A stretch of DNA of 64,000 nucleotides from Deltaproteobacteria bacterium. Its GTDB lineage: Bacteria > Desulfobacterota > Syntrophobacteria > Syntrophobacterales > Syntrophobacteraceae. The first letter of the stretch is position 1. Every line of letters begins with the position of its first letter. Shown here piece after piece: positions 7,333 to 37,889 of the stretch. The translations under genes were made by a program, and so were the position numbers. The stretch is taken from NCBI GenBank assembly GCA_021813685.1, contig JAKAJS010000115.1, positions 1-64,000 of the forward strand, given 5' to 3'. Below the pieces are notes generated by a model. The model saw nothing but the letters and a program-made list of their open reading frames with translations, was not told the DNA's origin and made no database searches.

Positions 7333-7638
7333 ATGAAAAAGATTTACAGTATCGGTGACATGCATACGGTAAGCGCTTTTCGCCTCTGCGGGGTCGAAGG
7401 GGTGGTTTGCGATCCGCACGAAGCGCCTGCCAGACTCGAAGAGATCGTCGGGAGAAGGGACGCAGGTATTGTGCTGGTGACCAATGAGCTGGCGGAAAAT
7501 CTCCACGCCCGCATCGCCGAGATAAACCGCACTATGCCCGACTCGGTGGTTGTCGAAATTCCCGGCATTGACGATACGCAGGGGTTCCGCAGATCGGCGC
7601 TCGAGTATATCGCGGAGGCGCTTGGGATCGGGCTGTGA
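7333..7638 (+). CDS. V/A-type ATPase subunit F
   Basis: 101 aa; 'IVLVTNELAENLHARIAEIN...PVVVEIPG'-type NtpG/AtpF sequence. Confidence 0.85.
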   Translation: MKKIYSIGDMHTVSAFRLCGVEGVVCDPHEAPARLEEIVGRRDAGIVLVTNELAENLHARIAEINRTMPDSVVVEIPGIDDTQGFRRSALEYIAEALGIGL

Positions 7639-7656
7639 GCGGCGAGGAGGAGGGAC

Positions 7657-8289
7657 ATGGACGAGACTGCGCTCGAGAGTTCCATCAGAGACCGGGCCGC
7701 ACGATTGATCGCAGCGATCGGGGAAAAGGAGAAAAGCGAACTCCGACTGCTGGAGCAGAACTGTATGGAGGAGATAGAGAGCCTCCGTGAGCAGGTCCGT
7801 GCCGAGGGGGAGGGACGTCTGCGCCAGGAACTCTCCAGAATCGAGAACCGGGCCGTTCTCGAGAGAAGGAAACGCAAGCTTGTGGGCGTGCAGAACTTCA
7901 TCGATCGCATGATGGAGGAAGTCGTCGAAGAGTTGAGGCATGATCCGCAGTACAGGCAATTTCTCCTGGACGCAATAGCCGAGGCCGCAGAACAGATAAA
8001 GGCCGGCTTCGAGGTGCGGCTCAACCCCGGGGACCTCACCTTGGAAGCGGAAATTCGCGCGGCGGTTACAACCGCCGGAAGAAGCCGGGATATAGCCATT
8101 ACGGAGGATGCAACGATACAGTGGGGCGGATGTCTCGTTTTGGACCGGGCGGAAGGCCGCATCTTCAACGGTACGATCGAAAGGATCTATTTCAGAAAAT
8201 CTCTCCTGATCCGCCAGGAAATCATGAAAATCGTGATGGATCATTCCCGAAGTCAAATGAATCCGACATCCCCCACGGCCTGGCCCTAA
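7657..8289 (+). CDS. V/A-type ATPase subunit E
   Basis: 210 aa coiled coil N-term, 'IQWGGCLVLDRAEGRIFNGTIERI' C-term typical of AtpE. Confidence 0.85.
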   Translation: MDETALESSIRDRAARLIAAIGEKEKSELRLLEQNCMEEIESLREQVRAEGEGRLRQELSRIENRAVLERRKRKLVGVQNFIDRMMEEVVEELRHDPQYRQFLLDAIAEAAEQIKAGFEVRLNPGDLTLEAEIRAAVTTAGRSRDIAITEDATIQWGGCLVLDRAEGRIFNGTIERIYFRKSLLIRQEIMKIVMDHSRSQMNPTSPTAWP

Positions 8290-26708: not shown

Positions 26709-28124
26709 ATGGATTATGACTCCAAACACATACTCGTCATAGAAGGCGGCAAATATATCAATCCAGATATCTGGACAGTATTGAAGGAGGAAGGGTATAG
26801 AATAACTGTTATAACTGATACGGCAAAGGCCTTGCTTGCAATCGATTCGCAGGAGTATGACCTGTTGTTTATCAATTGCGAGCTGTCTCTGCTGAGAAAA
26901 GAGGAACTATTACATGCAGCCGGTCGGATCAGGTCCGACATCCCGGTAATAATTGCCTCGGCTAACGGGATGGACTCTTTGATGGAAAAAGCGGAAAGAG
27001 CCCGATCCTTTAACTTTCTCCACGAGGTGATTGGACTTGACTCGGTTCTTGTGGCGATCCATCGGGCCTTGGAGGAGCAAGGGCTTAGACGTGCCGACAC
27101 CTTTTTCCCACAGGGCGCGGCCAATGGCTTCCGGGGAATCATCACAAAAAGCCCCAAGATGCTGCAGATGCTTCAACTGATCGGGCGCTTGTCGGATGTC
27201 GATTCCACCGTTCTCATTACCGGGGAGACGGGAGTAGGCAAAGAACTGGTTGCACGCGCGATCCACTTCACCGGTGCAAGAAAAAACAAGCCGTTTGTCG
27301 CCATCAATTGCGGCGCCCTAACCGAAAGTCTCCTGGAATCAGAGCTTTTCGGCCATGAAAAAGGATCGTTCACAGGCGCTTTCCGATCCAAGCCGGGTAA
27401 ATTCGAATGCGCCCACAAGGGAACCCTGTTTCTGGACGAGATAGGCGAGATTGCTCCCGCCATGCAGGTGAAGCTGCTCCGCGCTCTACAGGAAAAAAGA
27501 GTGGAAAAGGTGGGGGGAACCCACCCCATAGATGTCGATGTCAGGGTTATCTCGGCCACGAACCAGAATATCAAGGAGAAGGTCAACGATCACGATTTTC
27601 GAATAGACCTTTTTTACCGGCTCAATGTGATCCCGATACATGTCCCGCCGCTGCGGGAGAGGCCCGAAGATATCCCCCTTTTGATGAAGCACTTCATCAG
27701 CATGCATAACGAGAACCTGAATCGTAAAATCAGAGAAGTCACCCCGCGCGCTTTAAACCAATTGATGGATTATCATTGGCCGGGAAACGTCCGGGAGTTG
27801 GAAAACATTGTCGAGCGGGCGTTCATTACCTGCGAAAAAGATGTCATTGACCGGTTTCCCATTCCGCAGTCCTCCGAAGACCTTCCACCATCTCCCCCGA
27901 TGGATGCCCGGATGGCTGTCAATGGCGATATCCCTTTCAGCGTTGCCCGGTCGCGGCTGCTCAAAAATTTCGAAAGAGCCTACCTCCAGGAAGCCCTGGG
28001 GCGGTGCGAGGGAAACGTGACCCGAACCGCTCAAAAAACGGGCATCAACCCCAGAACCTTGTGGCGGAAGCTAAAAGAGCATGGTCTCGACCCGATGGGT
28101 TTTAAGGGCGGGAGGCAGAGATGA
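26709..28124 (+). CDS. Sigma54-dependent transcriptional activator with degenerate receiver domain
   Basis: 471 aa; 'GETGVGKELVARAIH', 'FGHEKGSFTGAF', 'GTLFLDEIGEI', Fis-type HTH C-term; receiver lacks canonical phosphoacceptor Asp ('LLFINCELS'). Confidence 0.93.
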   Translation: MDYDSKHILVIEGGKYINPDIWTVLKEEGYRITVITDTAKALLAIDSQEYDLLFINCELSLLRKEELLHAAGRIRSDIPVIIASANGMDSLMEKAERARSFNFLHEVIGLDSVLVAIHRALEEQGLRRADTFFPQGAANGFRGIITKSPKMLQMLQLIGRLSDVDSTVLITGETGVGKELVARAIHFTGARKNKPFVAINCGALTESLLESELFGHEKGSFTGAFRSKPGKFECAHKGTLFLDEIGEIAPAMQVKLLRALQEKRVEKVGGTHPIDVDVRVISATNQNIKEKVNDHDFRIDLFYRLNVIPIHVPPLRERPEDIPLLMKHFISMHNENLNRKIREVTPRALNQLMDYHWPGNVRELENIVERAFITCEKDVIDRFPIPQSSEDLPPSPPMDARMAVNGDIPFSVARSRLLKNFERAYLQEALGRCEGNVTRTAQKTGINPRTLWRKLKEHGLDPMGFKGGRQR

Positions 28125-28128
28125 AATG

Positions 28129-28167
28129 GATGTCACGGTGTGACGCCGGTGTCACAGATTGTAACAA
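28129..28167 (+). promoter_or_regulatory. Upstream activator element, copy 1: GATGTCACGGT...GTGTCAC-AGATT-GTAACAA
   Basis: Same composite element occurs at 33810-33849, both immediately after a sigma54 activator stop codon. Confidence 0.7.
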
Positions 28168-28323
28168 AGCGAAAGAACGACGTTTTTCTGCTGTTTCAGA
28201 AGCAATGGCGGAAAACGATGGCTGGATTTTCGTCCGGCGGTTGCCGGGGGCTCGGTGCGCTGTAGCCGCTTTTGGGTGCCCGGGGTGGTTCTCCGGGGTC
28301 TATTGCATCCCTGTTCGTTTGTC

Positions 28324-28339
28324 TGGCACGGAAAGTGCT
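28324..28339 (+). promoter_or_regulatory. Predicted sigma54 promoter
   Basis: TGGCACGGAAAGTGCT: TGGCACG-N4-[G]TGCT, one mismatch to TGGCACG-N4-TTGCW. Confidence 0.75.
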
Positions 28340-28419
28340 TGGGTATTTCCATAGTTTTCGAACCGTCTGTCGTGCTTGTTTGGAGTAAGAGCGAGGAGTT
28401 GTTCTGAGTTTCTTTTCTC

Positions 28420-28605
28420 TCGGTGAAAGGATCGACCTGAGGTAGAGAGCGACATCGAACAATTCGTTCGTGTAGTAGGGAAGATGGTGCAAGCCCATCG
28501 CTGCCCCGCAACTGTGAGCGGCGATCTTCGTTTCTCCTCTTCCACCTTTCTCTAAAGAGCCTGAGTGAGCGAAGATCACCGACGAGCCAGATACCTACCT
28601 GACCA
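28420..28605 (+). ncRNA. Cobalamin riboswitch
   Basis: GGGAAGATGGTGCAAGCCCATCGCTGCCCCGCAACTGTGAGCGGCGATCTTCG ... CGAAGATCACCGACGAGCCAGATACCTACCT: B12-box (GCCAG), CTGCCCCGCAACTGTGA core, pairing GATCTTCG/CGAAGATC. Confidence 0.93.
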
Positions 28606-28820
28606 GAGTGCTGTATGCTCCGAGGGGAGCGGCACTCCAACCGGTATTCCTTGTGACGTGCCATGCGTTTTGTGACCAGGGCCGCATGCGACAGCCCCTT
28701 GGGGGGGTGGCGCAGTGGCGCCGTAGAGGGCTGGAACCCCGGAGCATTCGGCGCCCGAGGTGGACGGCCGCGCTGTCCTGGCGTTCAGGATGCTCAAAAG
28801 ACAGCATGGGAGGCGTATAG

Positions 28821-29822
28821 ATGAATGCGAAAGAACGGGTGATGTGCGTGCTACAGGGTCAAAAGCCGGATCGAATGCCCTGCTTCGGGGCCAATTCGAC
28901 GGTCACCTACTCCCAGATGGAGAAGGTGAAAGCCTTTTGGCCCCAGGGACACGAAGAGGGCGAGGCGATGGCCAGACAGGCCCTGGCCGCCTATTCGATC
29001 ATGGGCTTCGATGCGGTACGGGTTCCCTTTGACCAGACCTTCGAGGCGCGGGCTCTTGGCTGCAAGATAAAATCCGGGGGAACCGAGGGAATACCGGGAA
29101 TCGAACACCCCCCTCCATACAAGTTGGATGATACGCCCCATTTCCCTTCGGATTTTCTTTCCAGGGGAGTCATTCCGGAGCTTCTCAAGGCGGTGGGGAT
29201 TCTGAAAAAGGAGGTGGGAAACGAGGCGGTCGTGGTGGCCGGGATCATCGGGCCGTTTACAATCGCAGGTTCTCTACTGGACACGGTCCCGCTGCTCAAG
29301 GCTACTTTCAAGGCTCCGGACAAGATCCGGCCGTTTCTGGAAGTAACGACAAAGGCGGCTTCGGCTTTGGGCAGGGCTCTTGTCGAGGCGGGAGCCGACA
29401 TCATCTCCTGCGAAGACATGACGGCCTCTCCGGAACTGATTGCGCCCAAGACCTATCGGGATCTCGAGCTGGAATATCAGACAAGGGTGTTCGAGTCCAT
29501 CTCGGTTCCTTCGATTTTGCACATCTGCGGCAACGTCGATGCCATCGTGGAGTGGATGGGAAAGACCGGGGCAAAGGTCCTGAGCCTCGAGCCCAAGGCC
29601 GATCCGGAGCTCGCACGCCAGAAGTGCGGGCCCGAGATCGTCTTGATGGGAGGAGTGGATACGGCCACCACGCTCTTTATGAAGGATGCCGAGACGGTGA
29701 AGCGGGCGTGTGAGGAGTCGATCGCCAAGGGCATCCAGATCCTTGCGCCCGGGTGCGCGGTGGCACCCGGCACGCCCCCTGAGAACCTTTTGGCGATGGT
29801 GGAGGTGGCAAGCAGACATTAG
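28821..29822 (+). CDS. MtaA/uroporphyrinogen decarboxylase-family methyltransferase
   Basis: 333 aa; 'SILHICGNVDAIVEWMGKTGAKVLSLE' ... 'ILAPGCAVAPGTPPENLLAM' retains HxC-Xn-C zinc site. Confidence 0.88.
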   Translation: MNAKERVMCVLQGQKPDRMPCFGANSTVTYSQMEKVKAFWPQGHEEGEAMARQALAAYSIMGFDAVRVPFDQTFEARALGCKIKSGGTEGIPGIEHPPPYKLDDTPHFPSDFLSRGVIPELLKAVGILKKEVGNEAVVVAGIIGPFTIAGSLLDTVPLLKATFKAPDKIRPFLEVTTKAASALGRALVEAGADIISCEDMTASPELIAPKTYRDLELEYQTRVFESISVPSILHICGNVDAIVEWMGKTGAKVLSLEPKADPELARQKCGPEIVLMGGVDTATTLFMKDAETVKRACEESIAKGIQILAPGCAVAPGTPPENLLAMVEVASRH

Positions 29823-29915
29823 GAAATTCAACCGTGTGCGATCGGCGGGTTTGCCGGAATCGCCTGATGGAAACCCAATGCAACCATTGCAAACAGAAGA
29901 TGAGGAGCGCTGATT

Positions 29916-30662
29916 ATGAAAACGTTGCAAAGCTACGGGAACATCTTCAAACGCTACGATCTGGATACCGAAAAGGCCGGAGTGGCCAGGGACGTATCAA
30001 CGGATGCGGTGTTGCAGGAAATTGCTCGATTCGTTGTAAACGGCGATGACGAGGGGATTTTGCCTGCCGTTCAAAACGCGCTCAAAAGCAAATCGCCCCT
30101 GGAGGTGATAAACGGGGCTCTGATCGCGGGGATGAACGAGGTGAGTCGCCTGTGGGACGAGGGGTCCTACTTTCTGCCCCAGGTAATCCTTTCTTCCGAC
30201 GCGATGAATGTGGGCATTGCCGAGTGTGAAAAGTCGATGGGGAAATCGATGGAAAGAAAGGGCAAGGTGGTCACCCACACCGCCGAGGGAGACATCCACG
30301 ATATCGGCCAGGTGATCGTTAACGCCCTTCTAAACGCCAATGGATTCGAGGTGATAAACCTCGGCGCCGATGTGCCGGTGGACAAGGTCGTTGAGGCGGT
30401 AAAGCAGCACAAGCCGGTGATGGTCACCGGTACGGCTCTCATGACCACCACGATGACCGCCTTTCCCAAGATCGCTCATCAGCTTCAGGCCGCGGGCATT
30501 CAGGTCCCCTTCGTTTGCGGAGGAGGAGCGGTAAGCGAGGAGTACGTGACCAGTTTCGAGCTGGGAATTTGGGGAAAAGAGGCCAGCCAGGCGCCGGGCA
30601 TGGCCGAGGATGCCCTGGCGGGCGAGAAGTGGGCGAGCATGCGCGAGAAATGGAACGGCTAG
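29916..30662 (+). CDS. Corrinoid protein (MtaC-like, B12-binding)
   Basis: 'HTAEGDIHDIGQVIVNALLNANGFEVINLGADVP' DxHxxG motif; 'TGTALMTTTMTA'. Confidence 0.92.
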   Translation: MKTLQSYGNIFKRYDLDTEKAGVARDVSTDAVLQEIARFVVNGDDEGILPAVQNALKSKSPLEVINGALIAGMNEVSRLWDEGSYFLPQVILSSDAMNVGIAECEKSMGKSMERKGKVVTHTAEGDIHDIGQVIVNALLNANGFEVINLGADVPVDKVVEAVKQHKPVMVTGTALMTTTMTAFPKIAHQLQAAGIQVPFVCGGGAVSEEYVTSFELGIWGKEASQAPGMAEDALAGEKWASMREKWNG

Positions 30663-30678
30663 AGGCGGCGGTGTCGGG

Positions 30679-31731
30679 ATGATCGTCGATATTGTTTTCG
30701 GGTTTCTCGGTTCGGGCAAAACCACGTTTATCTCCCGCGTCCTCAGAGAATGGGGCGGTAAGGAAAAGATCGTGGTCCTGGTAAATGAGTTTGGCGAGGT
30801 GGGTATCGATGGCGCTCTTTTGGAACAGCTCGGGGGCGAGGTCGTAGAGATGCCGAGCGGATGCATCTGCTGCACCCTGCAGGCCGATTTCCGATCGCAG
30901 ATGCTCGACATCACGCAGACGATAAACCCCCAGAGAGTGATCATCGAACCCACCGGGGTGGCGACCATCGCGCAGATTCGAAACATCGTCGAAACCCAGC
31001 TCTTCGAGAAGACCATCGAGCGGATCAATTACGTGCTCATCTGTGACGCCACCGGTTTTATGGGCCTCTATAAGGCCAATCCCCGATTCGTTGAATCCCA
31101 GGTGAAAAACGCGCGCGTAGTTCTTGTAAACAAGTGTGACAGGGTGGAGAAGAAAAAGAGTGCGCTTACCCGCAATGCGATCTCGGCGATCAATCCCGAT
31201 GCGACGGTCATCGCCACGGAATTCGGGGCGGTTGACTGGGGCCAGTATCAGCTGGCGCTTTCGGCGGCCCCGGATTCCCGAACCGTCCGGACCGGCCTCG
31301 ACCACCTGCGGGATGCGGGCCCGCAGGATGCCAGACCGGTTCACCTGCACGAGGAGGAAGATGCCCTGGGTTTTGAGTCTTTTGGTCTCCTCTACGGCGA
31401 CCTCACCTTCGATGAGGCGGAGTTGTCCCGTTTTTTCGAACAATTGAGCGGACCGGAGTTGGGCGAGATCGTCAGGGCCAAGGGGCTGTTTCGTACCGAA
31501 AACAGGTCGATGCTCCTGGAGCTGGCCTCGGGGGAATTTTCCTCACAGCCGGTGAGCCCCTGCGGCCAGAGCAGGATTTCGATCATCGGCAGGAATCTGA
31601 ACCGAAAGGAGATCGGGGCCGCCATTGAAAGGTGCCTGGTCGGCGTCCATCCGCAAACCTGCGACGCGCCGGGTGATTCGAACCCAAGTCCCCCTGTGAA
31701 AAAGGGGGATTCAGGGGGAGTTTACCAATAA
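30679..31731 (+). CDS. CobW-like G3E GTPase
   Basis: 'GFLGSGKTTFISRVL', 'VVLVNEFGEVGIDG', 'SGCICCTL', 'NKCDRV'; ATG at 30679. Confidence 0.9.
   Translation: MIVDIVFGFLGSGKTTFISRVLREWGGKEKIVVLVNEFGEVGIDGALLEQLGGEVVEMPSGCICCTLQADFRSQMLDITQTINPQRVIIEPTGVATIAQIRNIVETQLFEKTIERINYVLICDATGFMGLYKANPRFVESQVKNARVVLVNKCDRVEKKKSALTRNAISAINPDATVIATEFGAVDWGQYQLALSAAPDSRTVRTGLDHLRDAGPQDARPVHLHEEEDALGFESFGLLYGDLTFDEAELSRFFEQLSGPELGEIVRAKGLFRTENRSMLLELASGEFSSQPVSPCGQSRISIIGRNLNRKEIGAAIERCLVGVHPQTCDAPGDSNPSPPVKKGDSGGVYQ
31687..31725. repeat. Dispersed-type repeat AAGTCCCCCTGTGAAAAAGGGGGATTCAGGGGGAG
   Basis: CCCCCT-N7-AGGGGG hairpin followed by GATTCAGGGGGA; forms the extreme C-terminus of the CobW ORF (NPSPPVKKGDSGGVYQ). 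Confidence 0.65.
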
Positions 31732-31807
31732 ATCGGATGCAGACTCCTTTGAAAGCCAATGGCGCCTCGATGTGAAGCATGTCCCTTCGGGGAAAGGAGT
31801 TGAGAAA

Positions 31808-32383
31808 ATGGCGGAACAAACCAACCTCAATGAGGCAAAGCAGCCAATAGCCGATCCCTCGACGGTGGGATTGGCCGCGTTTGCCATTGCTCTTTTTACG
31901 CTGAGCTTTCTCAATGCAGGTGTCATCGGGCCAAAGGGAGTGAGCATAATGATCCCGCTCGCCCTGCTTTCCGGCGTCATCCAGATAATCGCGGCCATCT
32001 ACGGTTTCCGGAAAAACGAACTGTTCACCGCGATCGTATTCGGTCTCTACGGAATGTTCTGGATCGTCTATGCTCTTTCGAACCTGGGTGTAGCCCTCAA
32101 ATGGTATGAACTCGACGCGACGGCTCTTCTGCTTTTCATGATTGCCTATGCCATATTCAGCCTCTATGCGTTCGTTGCATCCCTTGCCACCAATGTAGCC
32201 GTAAGCGTCACGGTTTTTTTGCTCTTTGCCGTGTTCGTGCTGGTGTCCATCGGGCTGGCAGGGTTTCCGAGCTTTATCGCAGTGGCGGGCTATGTGGGAA
32301 TTGCCGATGCTCTCATGGCTTTCTATGTCTCGGCGGCGGGTCTGTTGGGCACGCTCTATGGCCGAACCGTCCTGCCGGTGTAG
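31808..32383 (+). CDS. Acetate transporter, GPR1/FUN34/YaaH (SatP) family
   Basis: 'DPSTVGLAAFAIALFTLSFLNAGVI', six hydrophobic segments; ATG at 31808 with GGAAAGGAG RBS. Confidence 0.85.
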   Translation: MAEQTNLNEAKQPIADPSTVGLAAFAIALFTLSFLNAGVIGPKGVSIMIPLALLSGVIQIIAAIYGFRKNELFTAIVFGLYGMFWIVYALSNLGVALKWYELDATALLLFMIAYAIFSLYAFVASLATNVAVSVTVFLLFAVFVLVSIGLAGFPSFIAVAGYVGIADALMAFYVSAAGLLGTLYGRTVLPV

Positions 32384-32402
32384 GCGCAGGAGGTAGTGTC
32401 CA

Positions 32403-33806
32403 TTGAGAAAAGAGGCCCGCGCATCCAAACCCGGGGTGCTGATTGTCGACGATCGCAACCGCACCCTTCACTCTTTGCTGCGCTTCATCTCGCCGGGGGC
32501 CTTCTCGCCCGTGTGGGTCTCCGAGGAAGAGCAGGCGCTCGAGTTGTTGCGAAAAAAGCCCCACAGAGAATGGATTGTCATAATCGATCTCAATTCGTCG
32601 GAAACGGGCGGAGGGGGCTTCTTGCACAAGGCGAGGCGGATCGCCCCCGATGCGGCGATTTTGGTCACCGGCCCCCTGGGCCCCTTTCTGTATAAAGGGG
32701 GCTCGTTTTACGAGTTTTGTGGACCGACGCTAAAAGAGCAGATCGACACGATTCTCTTTGAGATCAGCCATGGTGTGGCGGAAAGGAAAGGGGGGCAAAA
32801 AGACCCTGAGTGCAGGTTTGCACGAAAGGAGCCAAGGGAGCGCTTCGGCGCGATAATCGGTCGAAGCCCGATTCTAAATGGGATCTATGAGCTGATCGAG
32901 AGCATCAAGGGTTCCGGCGCCGCCGTTTTGATCCAGGGCGAAAGCGGTACGGGCAAAGAGCTGGTCGCGAAGACGATTCATGAGACAAGCCTTCGCCGCA
33001 GGGGACCCTTTGTGGCTCTCAACTGCGGCGCCATCCCCGCCGCCTTGATGGAAAGCGAGCTTTTCGGACATGAACGGGGAGCTTTTACGACTGCGCTCTA
33101 CACGAGGAAGGGCAAGTTTGAGATTGCCTGCGGGGGCACTTTGTTTCTCGATGAAATCGGCGCCCTGGACCGGGACCTTCAGGTTTTGCTGCTGCGGGTG
33201 CTCCAGGAAAAGGAGTTCCAGAGGGTGGGCGGAAACTCGACCCACAAAACCGATGTGCGGGTGATCGCTGCGACCAACCAGGACCTGCAGAAAGCCGTGC
33301 AGCTCGATCAGTTCCGCAAGGATCTGTACTATCGCCTCAATGTGGTTCCTATATACCTTCCCCCCTTGCGGGAAAGAAAAGAGGACATCCCTCTGCTCCT
33401 GGAGCATTTCTTTCGAAAAACCGCCGGCGAGCTGCATCGACCCGCCCCCGACGTGTGCGAGGAAGCCCTGGAGGCACTCTTTAACTACGGCTATCCGGGA
33501 AATATCCGGGAGCTGGCCAACATCGTCGAACGGCTCTTCGTCATGTGTCCTCCCGGCCCGGTGAGCCTTGAGGATCTGCCCCCGGAGGTGCGGGAGACGG
33601 CGGGCTTTTCCAATCGGGCCGCAGATCTGTTGAAGGAGCTGCCGGAAGGGGGCATCCCCCTTCAGGTGGTGGAAAAACAGCTGATTCTCAAGACTCTCGA
33701 AAGGACCTCGGGAAACAAGTGCGATGCCGCCAGGATGCTTGGAATCACACGGCGCCTCCTCTACCTGCGCCTTGCTCAATACGGCCTTACCCGGGCGGAT
33801 GTGTAG
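32403..33806 (+). CDS. Sigma54-dependent transcriptional activator (receiver-AAA-HTH) with GAFTTA variant
   Basis: 467 aa; 'GVLIVDDRNR', 'GESGTGKELVAKTIHE', 'FGHERGAFTTALYTRKGKFE', 'GTLFLDEIGALD'; TTG start. Confidence 0.92.
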   Translation: MRKEARASKPGVLIVDDRNRTLHSLLRFISPGAFSPVWVSEEEQALELLRKKPHREWIVIIDLNSSETGGGGFLHKARRIAPDAAILVTGPLGPFLYKGGSFYEFCGPTLKEQIDTILFEISHGVAERKGGQKDPECRFARKEPRERFGAIIGRSPILNGIYELIESIKGSGAAVLIQGESGTGKELVAKTIHETSLRRRGPFVALNCGAIPAALMESELFGHERGAFTTALYTRKGKFEIACGGTLFLDEIGALDRDLQVLLLRVLQEKEFQRVGGNSTHKTDVRVIAATNQDLQKAVQLDQFRKDLYYRLNVVPIYLPPLRERKEDIPLLLEHFFRKTAGELHRPAPDVCEEALEALFNYGYPGNIRELANIVERLFVMCPPGPVSLEDLPPEVRETAGFSNRAADLLKELPEGGIPLQVVEKQLILKTLERTSGNKCDAARMLGITRRLLYLRLAQYGLTRADV

Positions 33807-33809
33807 CCC

Positions 33810-33849
33810 GATGTCACGGTAGAGGCGAGGGTGTCACCGCAGGTTACAC
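33810..33849 (+). promoter_or_regulatory. Upstream activator element, copy 2: GATGTCACGGT...GTGTCAC-CGCAG-GTTACAC
   Basis: Same composite as 28129-28167; 20 vs 21 bp offset between sub-elements. Confidence 0.7.
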
Positions 33850-33929
33850 GGCGGAGGGAAAGGGAAGGGGGCGGGGCCGATAAAGTGTGTAATTGCCACT
33901 GCATACAGAAACGTTTTCGGACGTGGAAG

Positions 33930-33945
33930 TGGCACACGGGTTGCT
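33930..33945 (+). promoter_or_regulatory. Predicted sigma54 promoter of mtaB
   Basis: TGGCACACGGGTTGCT matches TGGCAC(G)-N4-TTGCW with one mismatch at position 7; 45 nt upstream of the mtaB ATG. Confidence 0.85.
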
Positions 33946-33990
33946 CTTCTGGAACTCGAAAGACATCTTAAACCTTATCAGGAGGTCAAC

Positions 33991-35367
33991 ATGGCAAGAC
34001 AACCTGTTACCCAGATGGCGTACAAAAGTGGCGCGGAAATGATGTTCGGGACAGCGAAAAAGCCGGTTACCACCAAGCGGGGCATCGTGATCGGCGGAGG
34101 ATTTGTCCATCCGGAGGTGGTTCCCCATCCGCGGCCGGGAAGCGAGAAGACGATGAAGACGCTTCTGCGCGAATATGAAAGGGCGAACGGGGACGCTCTG
34201 GAAAGAATGGTCATCGTGGGACACCCCACCCTGCAGATCGAAAATGAGCACGTGTTCCAGATGACCCACAATCCGAAGTGGGGCGGAGAGATTGCGGCCC
34301 AGACAGCCAGGCAGATGGACGATTACCTGCAAAAGTACGGGCTGAAGGCCGCCTACCGGTCAACGCCCGCCGACCTGCGAAAACCCGACATGCACCACAT
34401 GCGGGAAAGCGACTACACGCACGAAATCATCGAGTCCTTCAAGGAAGTCTCCAAATATGCAGACATTGTGTCAATAGAGTCCATGGGCGGAAAGGAAATC
34501 TTCGACCACGCCATCATCCGAAACGATATCGCCGGGATACTCTTCGGCATCGGCGTGCTCGGCTCCATCGACATGGAATGGATGTGGAACCAGATCGTCG
34601 CGATCGCTAAGCAGAACAACTGCATTCCGGGCGGCGACACGAACTGCTCCGAGGCCAATACCGCAATGTTTATGGCCGGCGGTTTGATCTCCAAAGACGT
34701 TCCCCACGTGATCGCAGCGCTTTCCCGGGCGATTTCGGCCTCGCGGACCCTGGTTGCCTATGAATGCGGGGCAACGGGGCCCACGAAGGACTGCGCCTAC
34801 GAAGATCCGATCATCAAGGCAATGACGGGCGTTCCCATTTCTTGTGAGGGCAAGGCCAGCGCCTGTGCGCACTCCGACCTTTGCAGCAACCTGATCATGG
34901 CCGTGACCGACCTTTGGAGCAACGAGGCGGTGGAATACCACGATATGTTCGGAGCCACCACGACCTCGGTATTTGCCGAGATCCTGGGCTACGACTGCGC
35001 GATGCTAAACACCGCCATCGAGTTGGGACACCAGGAGGTGCTCAAAGAGGTGCTCGTCAACTCCGATATGTACCGCGACTCTCACAGCCTCATACTGGCT
35101 CCCGACAACGCCTGGGAGATCGGGAACGCGATCGTGCAAAATCGCAGCAAGGGCTTCTATGCAAGTGCCAAGGCCGCGGCGTTGAAAGCCGGCGAGATCA
35201 TTCAGGGAGATTCCAAGATGAAGCTTACCGGAATCGAAAAAACCGCCCTGGACAACGCGATGAACGAATTGCGAAAGCTTCCCGAAAAAGAAGGCGATTT
35301 CATCGATCAGTGCCTGAGCAAGTACAAGAATGTGAAGGGCTTCAATCCGAAATCGTACGGATTGTAG
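33991..35367 (+). CDS. mtaB: Methanol:corrinoid protein methyltransferase MtaB
   Basis: 458 aa; 'GDTNCSEANTAMFMAGG', 'YECGATGPTKDCAYEDPIIKAMTGVPISCEGKASACAHSDLCSNL' typical of MtaB zinc-site region; AGGAGG RBS. Confidence 0.92.
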   Translation: MARQPVTQMAYKSGAEMMFGTAKKPVTTKRGIVIGGGFVHPEVVPHPRPGSEKTMKTLLREYERANGDALERMVIVGHPTLQIENEHVFQMTHNPKWGGEIAAQTARQMDDYLQKYGLKAAYRSTPADLRKPDMHHMRESDYTHEIIESFKEVSKYADIVSIESMGGKEIFDHAIIRNDIAGILFGIGVLGSIDMEWMWNQIVAIAKQNNCIPGGDTNCSEANTAMFMAGGLISKDVPHVIAALSRAISASRTLVAYECGATGPTKDCAYEDPIIKAMTGVPISCEGKASACAHSDLCSNLIMAVTDLWSNEAVEYHDMFGATTTSVFAEILGYDCAMLNTAIELGHQEVLKEVLVNSDMYRDSHSLILAPDNAWEIGNAIVQNRSKGFYASAKAAALKAGEIIQGDSKMKLTGIEKTALDNAMNELRKLPEKEGDFIDQCLSKYKNVKGFNPKSYGL

Positions 35368-35585
35368 TTGGAGTTTGAAACAACTTACGTTATATTGATA
35401 CCTAGGGGGGTAGGGTCGCGGATGGCTTTTCGCTGCCGCCGGTCTTTTACCCCCTTGCTTTTCAGTTTGCCTGCCGCGGATTCTTGCGGCGGGGGAGCTC
35501 TCTCTTTGCATGTCTGGCCCAAGTCGCCGGATCGTTCGCCATCCTCGTGTTTTCCATGCTTTCCGCAGGGCGCTGGAGGAAGGGA

Positions 35586-37274
35586 ATGACGGGATTAGGA
35601 ATTGCTCTGGATCTTGGCACAAGCGGTTTTCGGGGACAGGCGATAGAGCTTGATGCGGAGGGAAAAATCCTCTGCACGGCCGTCACTACCCGTCATCCCT
35701 TCCCCGGGGCCAATGTGATCGACCATCTTCATTTCGCGCTGGAAGTCGGCATCGAGAAGGCCAACCAGGTGATCGTGCACGCGGTCAACAGGGTGCTCGA
35801 CACCCTGCCGGTCGAAAAAGACCGGGTCGTTCGATTGGCCGTATGCGGCAACCCGATTCAGCTGTCGCTTTTTCAAGGGATCGAGATACGGGACCTGGCC
35901 TACGCCGGCAAACGCAAGCTGGAAGCCCTCGGAGTCATCCCCCCGAAAAGAAACGCCAGGATCATAAAGGCGGTGGAAATTCCGGGATTGGCTCTGCCCG
36001 CTCACACCGAGATACTGATCCCTCCCGCGGTTCGCCATGAAATCGGAGCCGATGCCCTGGCAATGATGATCCGTACGAGAATGCTCGAAAAAGACGAGAT
36101 CTCCATCGTAACCGATTACGGCACCAATGCGGAGATGGCCCTCATCGTAGGAGGGGTTGTCTACACGGGATCGACCGCAGCCGGACCCGCCCTGGAGGGC
36201 CAACAGATAGGAGACGGGATTCTGGCCCTTCCCGGTGCGATCTCCGATGTTGTCTTCGAGCCCGACGGGGTTGCCGGCGACGCTGCCAGGGGATGTCTTA
36301 CCGGCGATGACAGACCGCTAAAAGGCAGGCTGAAGACCTTTGTGCTCGACCACGAGATGATGCCTCGCCCGGGGGATACGGTGTACCCCGACTCGGGCCG
36401 GGTAAGCCAGACGGGCCAACTGCGGGCGGTGGGGATCACCGGAACCGGAGTGGTGGCCCTTCTCAGCCAGGGCTTCAAGGCCAGACTCATCCGAATTCCT
36501 CGGATCAATACCCTGGACATGGAGATCCACCTGCCCGACGAGCTCAAGTTCACCGAAAAGGACCTGCTCGAGGCGGGAAAAGCGATCGGCGCCGTTCGGG
36601 CTGGCCACGTGACCCTGTGCAACGAGGCAGGCATCCGGTTGGAGGACATTGAAGTGGCCTACATGTGCGGAGCCTCGGGCACTTATGTCGATGCCCTTAA
36701 GGCGCTGGATGTCGGGATGGTCCCGGCGCGGGTGAAAAAGATCTGCCAGGTGGGAAATACCTCGTTGGCCATGGCGGGAGAGGTGGTAAAAGACGTTGAT
36801 AATCTTTGGAAAATGCAGGATATCGCCGATAATCTGCGCCAGAATCATTGCATGTTCGCAGAATCCAAAGTTTTTGAAAAAGTCTACATCCTGGAACTCT
36901 CCTACTGGACCGAAGGGATGCCCCGGCAGCAGTACCAAAAGTTTCTGACCAAATATGGACTGCCGACGCTGGTCGAACCGGGAGAGGCTCCCGAAGTGAT
37001 AAAAACCGTCGAAAGGGATATCCCCGATTTGGGAGTGATGGGCCTCAAGATCATTCCGGATATCGGGGAGAAAAAAACGATTGCCTTTGAAGGGTGCCTT
37101 GGCGACGCCAAGTGCGTTTTGGAATGTCCGGAGAAGGCTTTGCAGATGAAGCGAAGGGGAGATATTTACGAGATTACCCTCGATATGGCTTTGTGCAACG
37201 GTGTGGCCTGCAGGAGATGCGAAAGAGCCTGCGAGACGAAGGGATTCGATCTCCTTTCCCTTCTCACCTGTTAG
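35586..37274 (+). CDS. RamA-like corrinoid reductive activase (ASKHA domain with C-terminal Fe-S ferredoxin domain)
   Basis: 'GIALDLGTSGFRGQ', 'IVTDYGTNAEMAL', C-terminal 'CLGDAKCVLECPEKAL...CNGVACRRCERACETKG'; ATG at 35586. Confidence 0.85.
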   Translation: MTGLGIALDLGTSGFRGQAIELDAEGKILCTAVTTRHPFPGANVIDHLHFALEVGIEKANQVIVHAVNRVLDTLPVEKDRVVRLAVCGNPIQLSLFQGIEIRDLAYAGKRKLEALGVIPPKRNARIIKAVEIPGLALPAHTEILIPPAVRHEIGADALAMMIRTRMLEKDEISIVTDYGTNAEMALIVGGVVYTGSTAAGPALEGQQIGDGILALPGAISDVVFEPDGVAGDAARGCLTGDDRPLKGRLKTFVLDHEMMPRPGDTVYPDSGRVSQTGQLRAVGITGTGVVALLSQGFKARLIRIPRINTLDMEIHLPDELKFTEKDLLEAGKAIGAVRAGHVTLCNEAGIRLEDIEVAYMCGASGTYVDALKALDVGMVPARVKKICQVGNTSLAMAGEVVKDVDNLWKMQDIADNLRQNHCMFAESKVFEKVYILELSYWTEGMPRQQYQKFLTKYGLPTLVEPGEAPEVIKTVERDIPDLGVMGLKIIPDIGEKKTIAFEGCLGDAKCVLECPEKALQMKRRGDIYEITLDMALCNGVACRRCERACETKGFDLLSLLTC

Positions 37275-37295: not shown

Positions 37296-37889
37296 GTGAT
37301 GCTGGAGAGGCAAAAGATAGATGAATTGATCCTGGAGTCGCTCATGCGTGTCGACGGATTGGTGGAGGCGAAGCCGCTGCGAGATGTGGACCGCGAAAGA
37401 ATCATCGAGCTCGAGCAGGAAGCCGAAGCCAAATCCCTTATGGGACTGGGGAAAGTAATCAATGCCGGAATTTTTCAGGTGCTCGAATGTGACTGGGTCT
37501 ATGTCGCCCTGACGAATATGGATTTTGACTGGAGGGGAGAACCCAACCTGCTTCTGAAAAAAGGAGAGGAAGTAGTGGGCGAGGAGGTCACCGATGAAGA
37601 GGTGATATCCGAGCTTTCAGGCAAAAAGAATGTATGGTTCATGCACAAAAACTTTGTCGTCTATAGAGACAGAATCAGCTTTCCGCGGGATATCATGGAG
37701 AAAATTTGCCATTTTGAAATACCGGGCCATTCCCCGGATTGGTGTGACGCAAACAGGGAAGAGCTCGACTTTGACTGCATCGTGTACGGCTCCCCTTCGG
37801 TCCCCGGCGATATGTTTTTGAAAAATACATACTTTGGTGGAACAGACGATAAAGGATTCGGAACGGTACTGATTGGAGTGAAACTATAG
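37296..37889 (+). CDS. Hypothetical protein
   Basis: 197 aa ORF in operon context between RamA-like and histidine kinase genes; no family recognised. Confidence 0.7.
   Translation: MMLERQKIDELILESLMRVDGLVEAKPLRDVDRERIIELEQEAEAKSLMGLGKVINAGIFQVLECDWVYVALTNMDFDWRGEPNLLLKKGEEVVGEEVTDEEVISELSGKKNVWFMHKNFVVYRDRISFPRDIMEKICHFEIPGHSPDWCDANREELDFDCIVYGSPSVPGDMFLKNTYFGGTDDKGFGTVLIGVKL

Follow-up and report, generated by a model that had tools for sequence, protein, structure and literature searches.

How is methanol use controlled in this bacterium, and do the two activator genes that stand among its methanol genes form one switch present twice or two different switches? The window analyzed here, 64,000 nucleotides of contig JAKAJS010000115.1, places the methanol-use genes behind two different dedicated activators in a relay-like order, with a B12-sensing RNA in the first messenger. 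Judged from the DNA, the region is probably a dedicated two-tier control of methanol use through a corrinoid methyltransferase. Its regulatory parts are well known, their wiring appears to be new, and the arrangement is present in related bacteria as well.

All features described below lie on the plus strand. The gene for the first activator (EBP1; 26709..28124) is followed by TGTCAC elements, a near-consensus −24/−12 promoter (P1) and mtaA; the gene for the second activator (EBP2; 32403..33806) is followed by the same order of elements and then by mtaB. The mtaA-like gene (28821..29822) encodes a methyltransferase of the MtaA/CmuA subfamily (PF01208; TIGR01463 above cutoff). It is followed by genes for an mtaC-like corrinoid protein (29916..30662; PF02310 and PF02607; matching MtaC families below the equivalog cutoff), a CobW-type GTPase (30679..31731; PF02492), a YaaH-type small-solute permease (31772..32383; PF01184) and EBP2. 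From mtaA through EBP2 the genes keep one strand with small gaps, no terminator-like site was found in the intergenic gaps of this operon, and no sigma70-like promoter was seen in 28100-34000. The product of 33991..35367 belongs to the MtaB family of methanol:corrinoid methyltransferases (PF12176, 680 bits against a cutoff of 25), with an NCBIfam MtaB_Meth score of 661, somewhat below the 720 equivalog cutoff; a RamA-like corrinoid activase follows (35484..37274; TIGR04270, 743 bits against a cutoff of 500). Eleven related loci, among them that of Desulfospira joergensenii (L015), keep the layout completely or partly. The carriers are, besides the window, L006/L014, L007, L011, L021, L045 and L015, together with the partial contigs L010, L012, L013, L016 and L039. 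Because of this conservation, it is very unlikely that the two units of activator, upstream site (UAS), sigma54 promoter and mta gene, which a sequence-only reading had already recognized, arose by chance.

The same reading had placed −24/−12 sites at 28324-28339 and 33930-33945, and we recover both, each as the top-scoring sigma54 match between its neighboring genes: P1 (CTGGCACGGAAAGTGCT, 28323..28339) and P2 (GTGGCACACGGGTTGCT, 33929..33945). Both predicted promoters carry GG at −24 and GC at −12 with 10 bp between them, and their sigma54 scores were reached by 1 of 300 shuffles for P1 and by none of 300 for P2. For each mtaA and mtaB tested, at least 97% of shuffles score lower than the best sigma54 match in the upstream region.

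EBP1 and EBP2 both combine the AAA+ sigma54 interaction domain (PF00158) with a Fis-type helix-turn-helix (PF02954), and both fall below the cutoff for all listed NCBIfam activator families, so that neither is assigned to a named subfamily (NtrC, NifA or other). Their receiver domains are degenerate (EBP1) or atypical (EBP2). At 41% identity, the two proteins are no closer to each other than to many of the genome's 57 matches, and they fall into separate clades in the tree. The recognition helix is conserved inside each clade and differs between clades (RTLWRK in EBP1, GITRRLLYLRL in EBP2).

Each activator gene is followed by a site of its own. Behind EBP1 lies UAS1, whose core TGTCACGGTGTGACGCCGGTGTC (28131..28153) has the form TGTC-N7-GACR-N4-TGTC and is conserved after EBP1 in relatives. 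With the window left out of training, the UAS1 matrix gives 18.3 at 28131, a score matched once in 5 Mb of random sequence. UAS1 accompanies EBP1 even in loci where mta lacks a neighboring EBP2 gene (L017, L018, L043 and L055), and its half-site tracks the EBP1 helix: TGTCAC or TGTCA occurs with RTLWRK (most loci), and TGTC[CT]G with RTVLRK. The site is unrecognizable in L015, L023 and L045. Behind EBP2, relatives carry UAS2 as paired 17-bp dyads of the form TGTNACC-N3-GGTNACA, 31-32 bp apart in nine loci; for L015, the second dyad was recovered with a matrix whose training set did not contain it. In the window, UAS2 consists of one dyad (TGTCACCGCAGGTTACA, 33832..33848), scoring 24.1 with a matrix trained without the window (0 random matches in 3 Mb), and one upstream half site matched by sequence (TGTCACGGT, 33812..33820), where the matrix score of −2.5 indicates that a second full dyad is missing. 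Across about 0.9 Mb of loci, UAS2 matrix matches of at least 16 are confined to the stretch between EBP2 and mtaB (two of them overlap the end of EBP2). A wider regulon was sought by genome-wide pattern searches: the only exact occurrence of TGTNACCNNNGGTNACA is the UAS2 dyad at 33832, and UAS1 has two exact matches, the second on contig C138.

The sequence-only reading saw in these two places duplicated modules, paralogous or cross-regulating, that share one composite element, and the resemblance on which it drew is real. The 11-mer GATGTCACGGT follows both activator genes, at 28129-28139 and 33810-33820, and occurs nowhere else in the window, although its distance from the stop codon is 4 nt for EBP1 and 3 nt for EBP2 rather than the proposed 4-5 bp. 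Counted from the start of that element, the dyad GTGTCAC-N5-GTNACA lies 20 bp on at 28149-28166 and 21 bp on at 33831-33848, and these are its only two exact matches in the 5.06-Mb genome (reversed-pattern control, 0); relaxed to two mismatches, it is no commoner than the reversed control. That both units arrange activator, site, promoter and mta gene alike also speaks for duplication. Nevertheless, the matrices separate the two sites: the UAS2 matrix scores 24.1 at 33832 versus 13.5 at 28150, and the UAS1 matrix 18.3 at 28131 versus background (−0.2) across the UAS2 region. What UAS1 and UAS2 have in common is the TGTCAC half-site, and in Desulfovibrio vulgaris TGT/ACA half sites are common to unrelated activators (PMC4641369). 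In the sequences of relatives that were inspected, the 11-mer found at both places did not appear. Tree and helices tell against a single duplicated module, since the activators are not sister proteins, and the matrices trained without the window against one element serving both promoters, which leaves an overlap at 28150 specific to the window. We therefore consider duplicated modules with one common element very unlikely.

That overlap, a UAS2-like dyad inside UAS1 (TGTCACAGATTGTAACA, 28150..28166; UAS2 matrix 12.7-13.5), was the first dyad of the sequence-only reading. It lends some weight to cross-regulation in the window, its score being reached by 1 of 400 shuffles, while most relatives have no match there and score at background; about 10 such sites are expected per genome at 13.5. 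In the window's lineage, EBP2 might thus be the main regulator of both promoters, acting from 33832 on mtaB and from 28150 on mtaA in a positive feedback loop, with EBP1 decaying. The second-best UAS2 matrix score of the 64-kb window falls exactly in UAS1, and EBP1 seems to have lost its usual input. In most relatives EBP1 looks, from its sequence and neighborhood, like a response regulator paired with a histidine kinase encoded beside it: the kinase adjoins EBP1 in 10 relatives, the receiver residues are intact in 10 orthologs (and partly lost in L014), and precisely the loci with a degenerate receiver have no kinase. EBP1 has lost phosphorylation residues in the window and in its nearest relative, and the locus has no histidine kinase there; in the window the acidic pair, phospho-Asp, Thr/Ser and Lys are replaced (EGG, N). 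Because both kinase and residues are gone, EBP1 should act without phosphotransfer in this lineage. However, EBP1 remains a full-length open frame with an intact helix that is conserved in orthologs, the window retains a conserved UAS1 core, and the score at 28150 lies about 10 bits under that of the mtaB site. An EBP2 feedback loop that has displaced EBP1 is thus unlikely.

Between P1 and mtaA, in the P1 leader, lies a cobalamin riboswitch aptamer (28423..28616; RF00174, 54 bits against a gathering threshold of 31.5). The sequence-only reading had not listed it. RF00174 matches stand at the same place in seven relatives (48-73 bits), and the riboswitch is conserved with an intact core in eight two-activator loci of several lineages; none was found in Desulfospira or in other mta loci. 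In a search for the expression platform, the leader proved to align poorly except in the aptamer core and in one conserved hairpin, which has a CGAGGG loop, and the fold is unremarkable (z −1.55). Cobalamin riboswitches usually accompany corrinoid synthesis or uptake genes, and one of the usual repressing kind would work against a corrinoid-using operon. It is possible, rather than probable, that this riboswitch instead serves as a corrinoid checkpoint for a catabolic operon that consumes corrinoid and ends in a sigma54 activator, so that corrinoid status would be relayed transcriptionally from the first to the second mta operon, and that an ancestral two-component input has, in the window's lineage, partly given way to this checkpoint. 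Alternatively, the riboswitch could be of the usual type that represses at plentiful corrinoid, as cobalamin riboswitches do for corrinoid genes in Dehalobacter (PMC4285132), or a functionless relic, with the activators alone controlling the methanol genes and EBP2 transcribed from a promoter of its own. Neither an intrinsic terminator nor a terminator-like site was found after the aptamer, which also scores lowest of the five in the genome. A relic would not be so conserved, however, and no separate promoter was seen before EBP2; this combination appears doubtful to us.

From these parts and their conservation, all read directly from the DNA, we infer a cascade, including which protein acts at which site, the co-transcription of EBP2 and the nature of the inducing signals. 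EBP1 would bind UAS1, directly downstream of its own gene, and drive P1. The P1 transcript would carry the riboswitch in its leader and then encode MtaA, MtaC, the CobW-type GTPase, the permease and, last, EBP2, so that EBP1 and the corrinoid riboswitch would control these genes together. EBP2 would in turn bind UAS2, again directly downstream of its own gene, and drive P2 for mtaB and ramA. The methanol-specific enzyme would then be made only once the first operon is expressed and, if the sign of the riboswitch permits, only when the corrinoid state is right. The position of EBP2 at the end of the operon behind P1 favors a cascade over two parallel switches, although EBP2 could have its own, unseen promoter.

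NtrC-type enhancers consist of 6-N5-6 dyads in tandem copies about three helical turns apart. UAS2 resembles them in dyad geometry and tandem spacing; the half-site differs, UAS1 has another geometry, and EBP1 and EBP2 are below the NtrC family cutoff. The mta loci of acetogens and of Desulfotomaculum/Desulfofundulus kuznetsovii contain mtaA, mtaB and mtaC, as does the window, and are induced by methanol, with MtaR proposed as the mta regulator in Sporomusa (PMC12456013, PMC5770442); among sulfate reducers mtaB is patchy (PMC7808614). The sections of the D. vulgaris sigma54 study consulted (PMC4641369) describe activator genes beside sigma54 target operons, proposed cascades and palindromic TGT/ACA sites, one group with the 11-bp spacing of UAS2; unlike the window, those sections include no riboswitch after a sigma54 promoter and no second activator ending the first target operon, and a text search of the paper for “methyltransferase” gave no match. 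In ethanolamine use, EutX/Rli55 similarly gates corrinoid-dependent catabolism through corrinoid state and a response regulator, but there the riboswitch lies in a small RNA that sequesters EutV, whereas the window's lies in the leader of a catabolic mRNA (PMC5821096). In the literature searched we found nothing matching sigma54 with mta or a riboswitch with mta, no two-tier sigma54-plus-riboswitch layout for mta loci, and no account of the control of the methanol methyltransferase system in Gram-negative bacteria of the sulfate-reducer type. The data supply two binding motifs that can be tested, two promoters, an order of regulation and, before corrinoid-using enzymes, a conserved RNA that senses corrinoid. 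Desulfospira joergensenii DSM 10085 is a cultured carrier of the two-activator layout that appears to be without the riboswitch, and it is therefore a natural comparison for the riboswitch carriers.

The mta locus of the window opens with EBP1 (26709-28124), the first of two sigma54 activator genes, followed by mtaA-like (from 28821) and mtaC-like (from 29916) genes, a CobW-type GTPase (from 30679), a YaaH-type permease (31772-32383) and the second activator, EBP2 (32403-33806), and continues with MtaB (from 33991) and a RamA-like activase (from 35484). The sequence-only reading had seen here two duplicated modules, each with an activator, a downstream site, a sigma54 promoter and a methyltransferase gene. 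Its sequence strings were all found where it placed them, although the first elements of its two sites (28129 and 33810), said to follow the stop codons by 4-5 bp, start 4 and 3 nt past them. Both of its -24/-12 sites, P1 before mtaA (28324-28339) and P2 before mtaB (33930-33945), are the top sigma54 match of their own region, a score reached by 1/300 and 0/300 shuffles. A search of the whole 5.06-Mb genome returned two exact matches to its dyad GTGTCAC-N5-GTNACA, both at this locus. A relaxed dyad is frequent genome-wide, yet not above the reversed control, so that it is the exact form of the match, together with its conservation, that carries the significance.

What that layout lacked is a cobalamin riboswitch (28423-28616, 54 bits) between P1 and mtaA. 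Taken about 12 nt past the -12 GC, transcription is predicted to start near 28350 and 33956, and the former start would place the riboswitch inside the P1 transcript. From mtaA to EBP2 all genes lie on the same strand in every two-activator locus where this is visible, with small gaps or one small gene before EBP2; in the window, a search of 28100-34000 turned up no sigma70-like promoter, and the gaps between the genes of this operon hold no terminator-like site. The simplest reading thus makes EBP2 the final gene transcribed from P1, and mtaB would be its target. Under that reading, duplicated modules give way to a cascade in two tiers, with a leader that would sense corrinoid. As read from sequence, the regulation is real, conserved and functional-looking, and is built from known parts; no such arrangement was found in the literature searched.

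The relationship of the two activators also argues against duplication. EBP1 and EBP2 are 41% identical, a value that many pairs drawn from the genome's 57 matches also show. Each falls in a clade of its own with good support, and other activators of this genome lie between the two clades. Recognition helices are kept within the clades and differ between them: the EBP1 type of the window has RTLWRK, most of the one-activator type has RTV.RK, and EBP2 has GITRR(L/R)LYLRL.

Nor are the sites 3' of the two genes the same composite element, as had been proposed. UAS1, downstream of EBP1, is TGTC-N7-GACR-N4-TGTC and is conserved in the window, L006/L014 (two copies of one locus), L007, L011, L018, L021, L039, L043/L008 and L055; L017 has a version shorter by one base. 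In the loci examined, the strict pattern (GACA form) matches only downstream of EBP1; reverse-strand matches in L018 and L055 are of the near-palindromic kind and have coordinates on the same sites. One of its two exact matches in the window's genome is at this locus. UAS2, downstream of EBP2, consists of two copies of a 17-bp dyad, TGTNACC-N3-GGTNACA, spaced by 31 bp in seven loci and 32 bp in two, the first beginning at the fourth base past the EBP2 stop in six loci; the window retains a single dyad, at 33832, along with a half site at 33812. Matrices trained without the window separate the two: that for UAS2 scores 24.1 at 33832 versus 13.5 at 28150, and that for UAS1 reaches 18.3 at 28131 and stays at background over UAS2. 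Under the UAS2 model the UAS1 region is at background in most relatives, the exceptions being the window (12.7; 1/400 shuffles) and L021 (10.0; 0/400), so that a degree of cross-binding may occur. Changes in the UAS1 half-site go along with the EBP1 helix type, which points to EBP1 as the protein that reads it. In Desulfovibrio vulgaris, several activators have TGT/ACA half sites in common, and motif likeness does not always parallel protein likeness (PMC4641369); a common TGTCAC therefore says little on shared control.

Signature motifs place a histidine kinase directly 5' of EBP1 in L007, L011, L015, L017, L018, L021, L023, L043, L045 and L055; kinase domains were confirmed for five of those loci and for L011, and one subgroup has GAF and PAS sensor domains. 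EBP1 receivers are canonical in all ten. The window and L014, which have no histidine kinase at the EBP1-adjacent position, are the two loci whose receivers have lost key residues, consistent with loss of kinase input at the locus.

RF00174 occurs at the same place in the window, L006, L007, L010, L011, L021, L039 and L045 (48-73 bits); none was found in L015 (Desulfospira joergensenii), nor in the one-activator and other loci examined. The B12 box (window ~28588-28602) lacks one G in the window and L006, CAGATACC and CAGACACC versus CAGGATACC in relatives; it is also in these two loci that EBP1 has lost residues of its receiver. Four further cobalamin riboswitches in the genome all score higher, and three adjoin putative corrinoid or cobalt uptake or synthesis genes (ORFs read by eye). 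At L081, on contig C81 of this genome, a strong cobalamin riboswitch is followed by an ORF that resembles, on reading, a ThiC/BzaF-type protein and has CbiX-like and CobI-like ORFs as neighbours; the role may be lower-ligand synthesis. The cobalamin riboswitches known from Dehalobacter repress corrinoid genes (PMC4285132). For ethanolamine utilization, a pathway that depends on B12, gating by an AdoCbl riboswitch works via a small RNA (PMC5821096).

MtaB was matched in 5 of 395 genomes of the phylum, the window's included, and in none of 10 other genomes of its genus. MtaB shares 87% identity with that of a different genus in the family and 83% with that of a different family (L002, L003), which, set against its absence from those 10 genomes, suggests horizontal spread. 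Scanning named genomes yielded 48 loci. Of these and the window, the layout with two activators is seen in the window, L006/L014, L007, L011, L015, L021 and L045, and in the fragments L010, L012, L013, L016 and L039; a layout with EBP1 alone, followed by mtaA-mtaC-mtaB, is found in L017, L018, L023, L043/L008 and L055. More distant loci have mtaC-mtaB-ramA with neither activator gene alongside.

In place of the YaaH-type gene before EBP2, L011 has an AmiS/UreI-like gene (7637-8164; 24.8 bits, just below cutoff), and sequences like it fill this slot in L007, L010, L014, L039 and L045; the slot is empty of genes in L015, L016 and L021. Possibly a channel for a small solute (methanol?) has been replaced by an unrelated family. 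A small protein of ~70 residues (MIACTRCGRWHSDAE...) with no Pfam family lies between mtaB and ramA in L011 (11806-12009), with similar ones in L007, L010, L013, L014 and L021; the 116-bp gap in the window is too small for it. Following the activase, a conserved 197-residue protein (window 37296-37889), without a Pfam or NCBIfam family, recurs in the majority of the one- and two-activator mta loci on contigs long enough to include this position.
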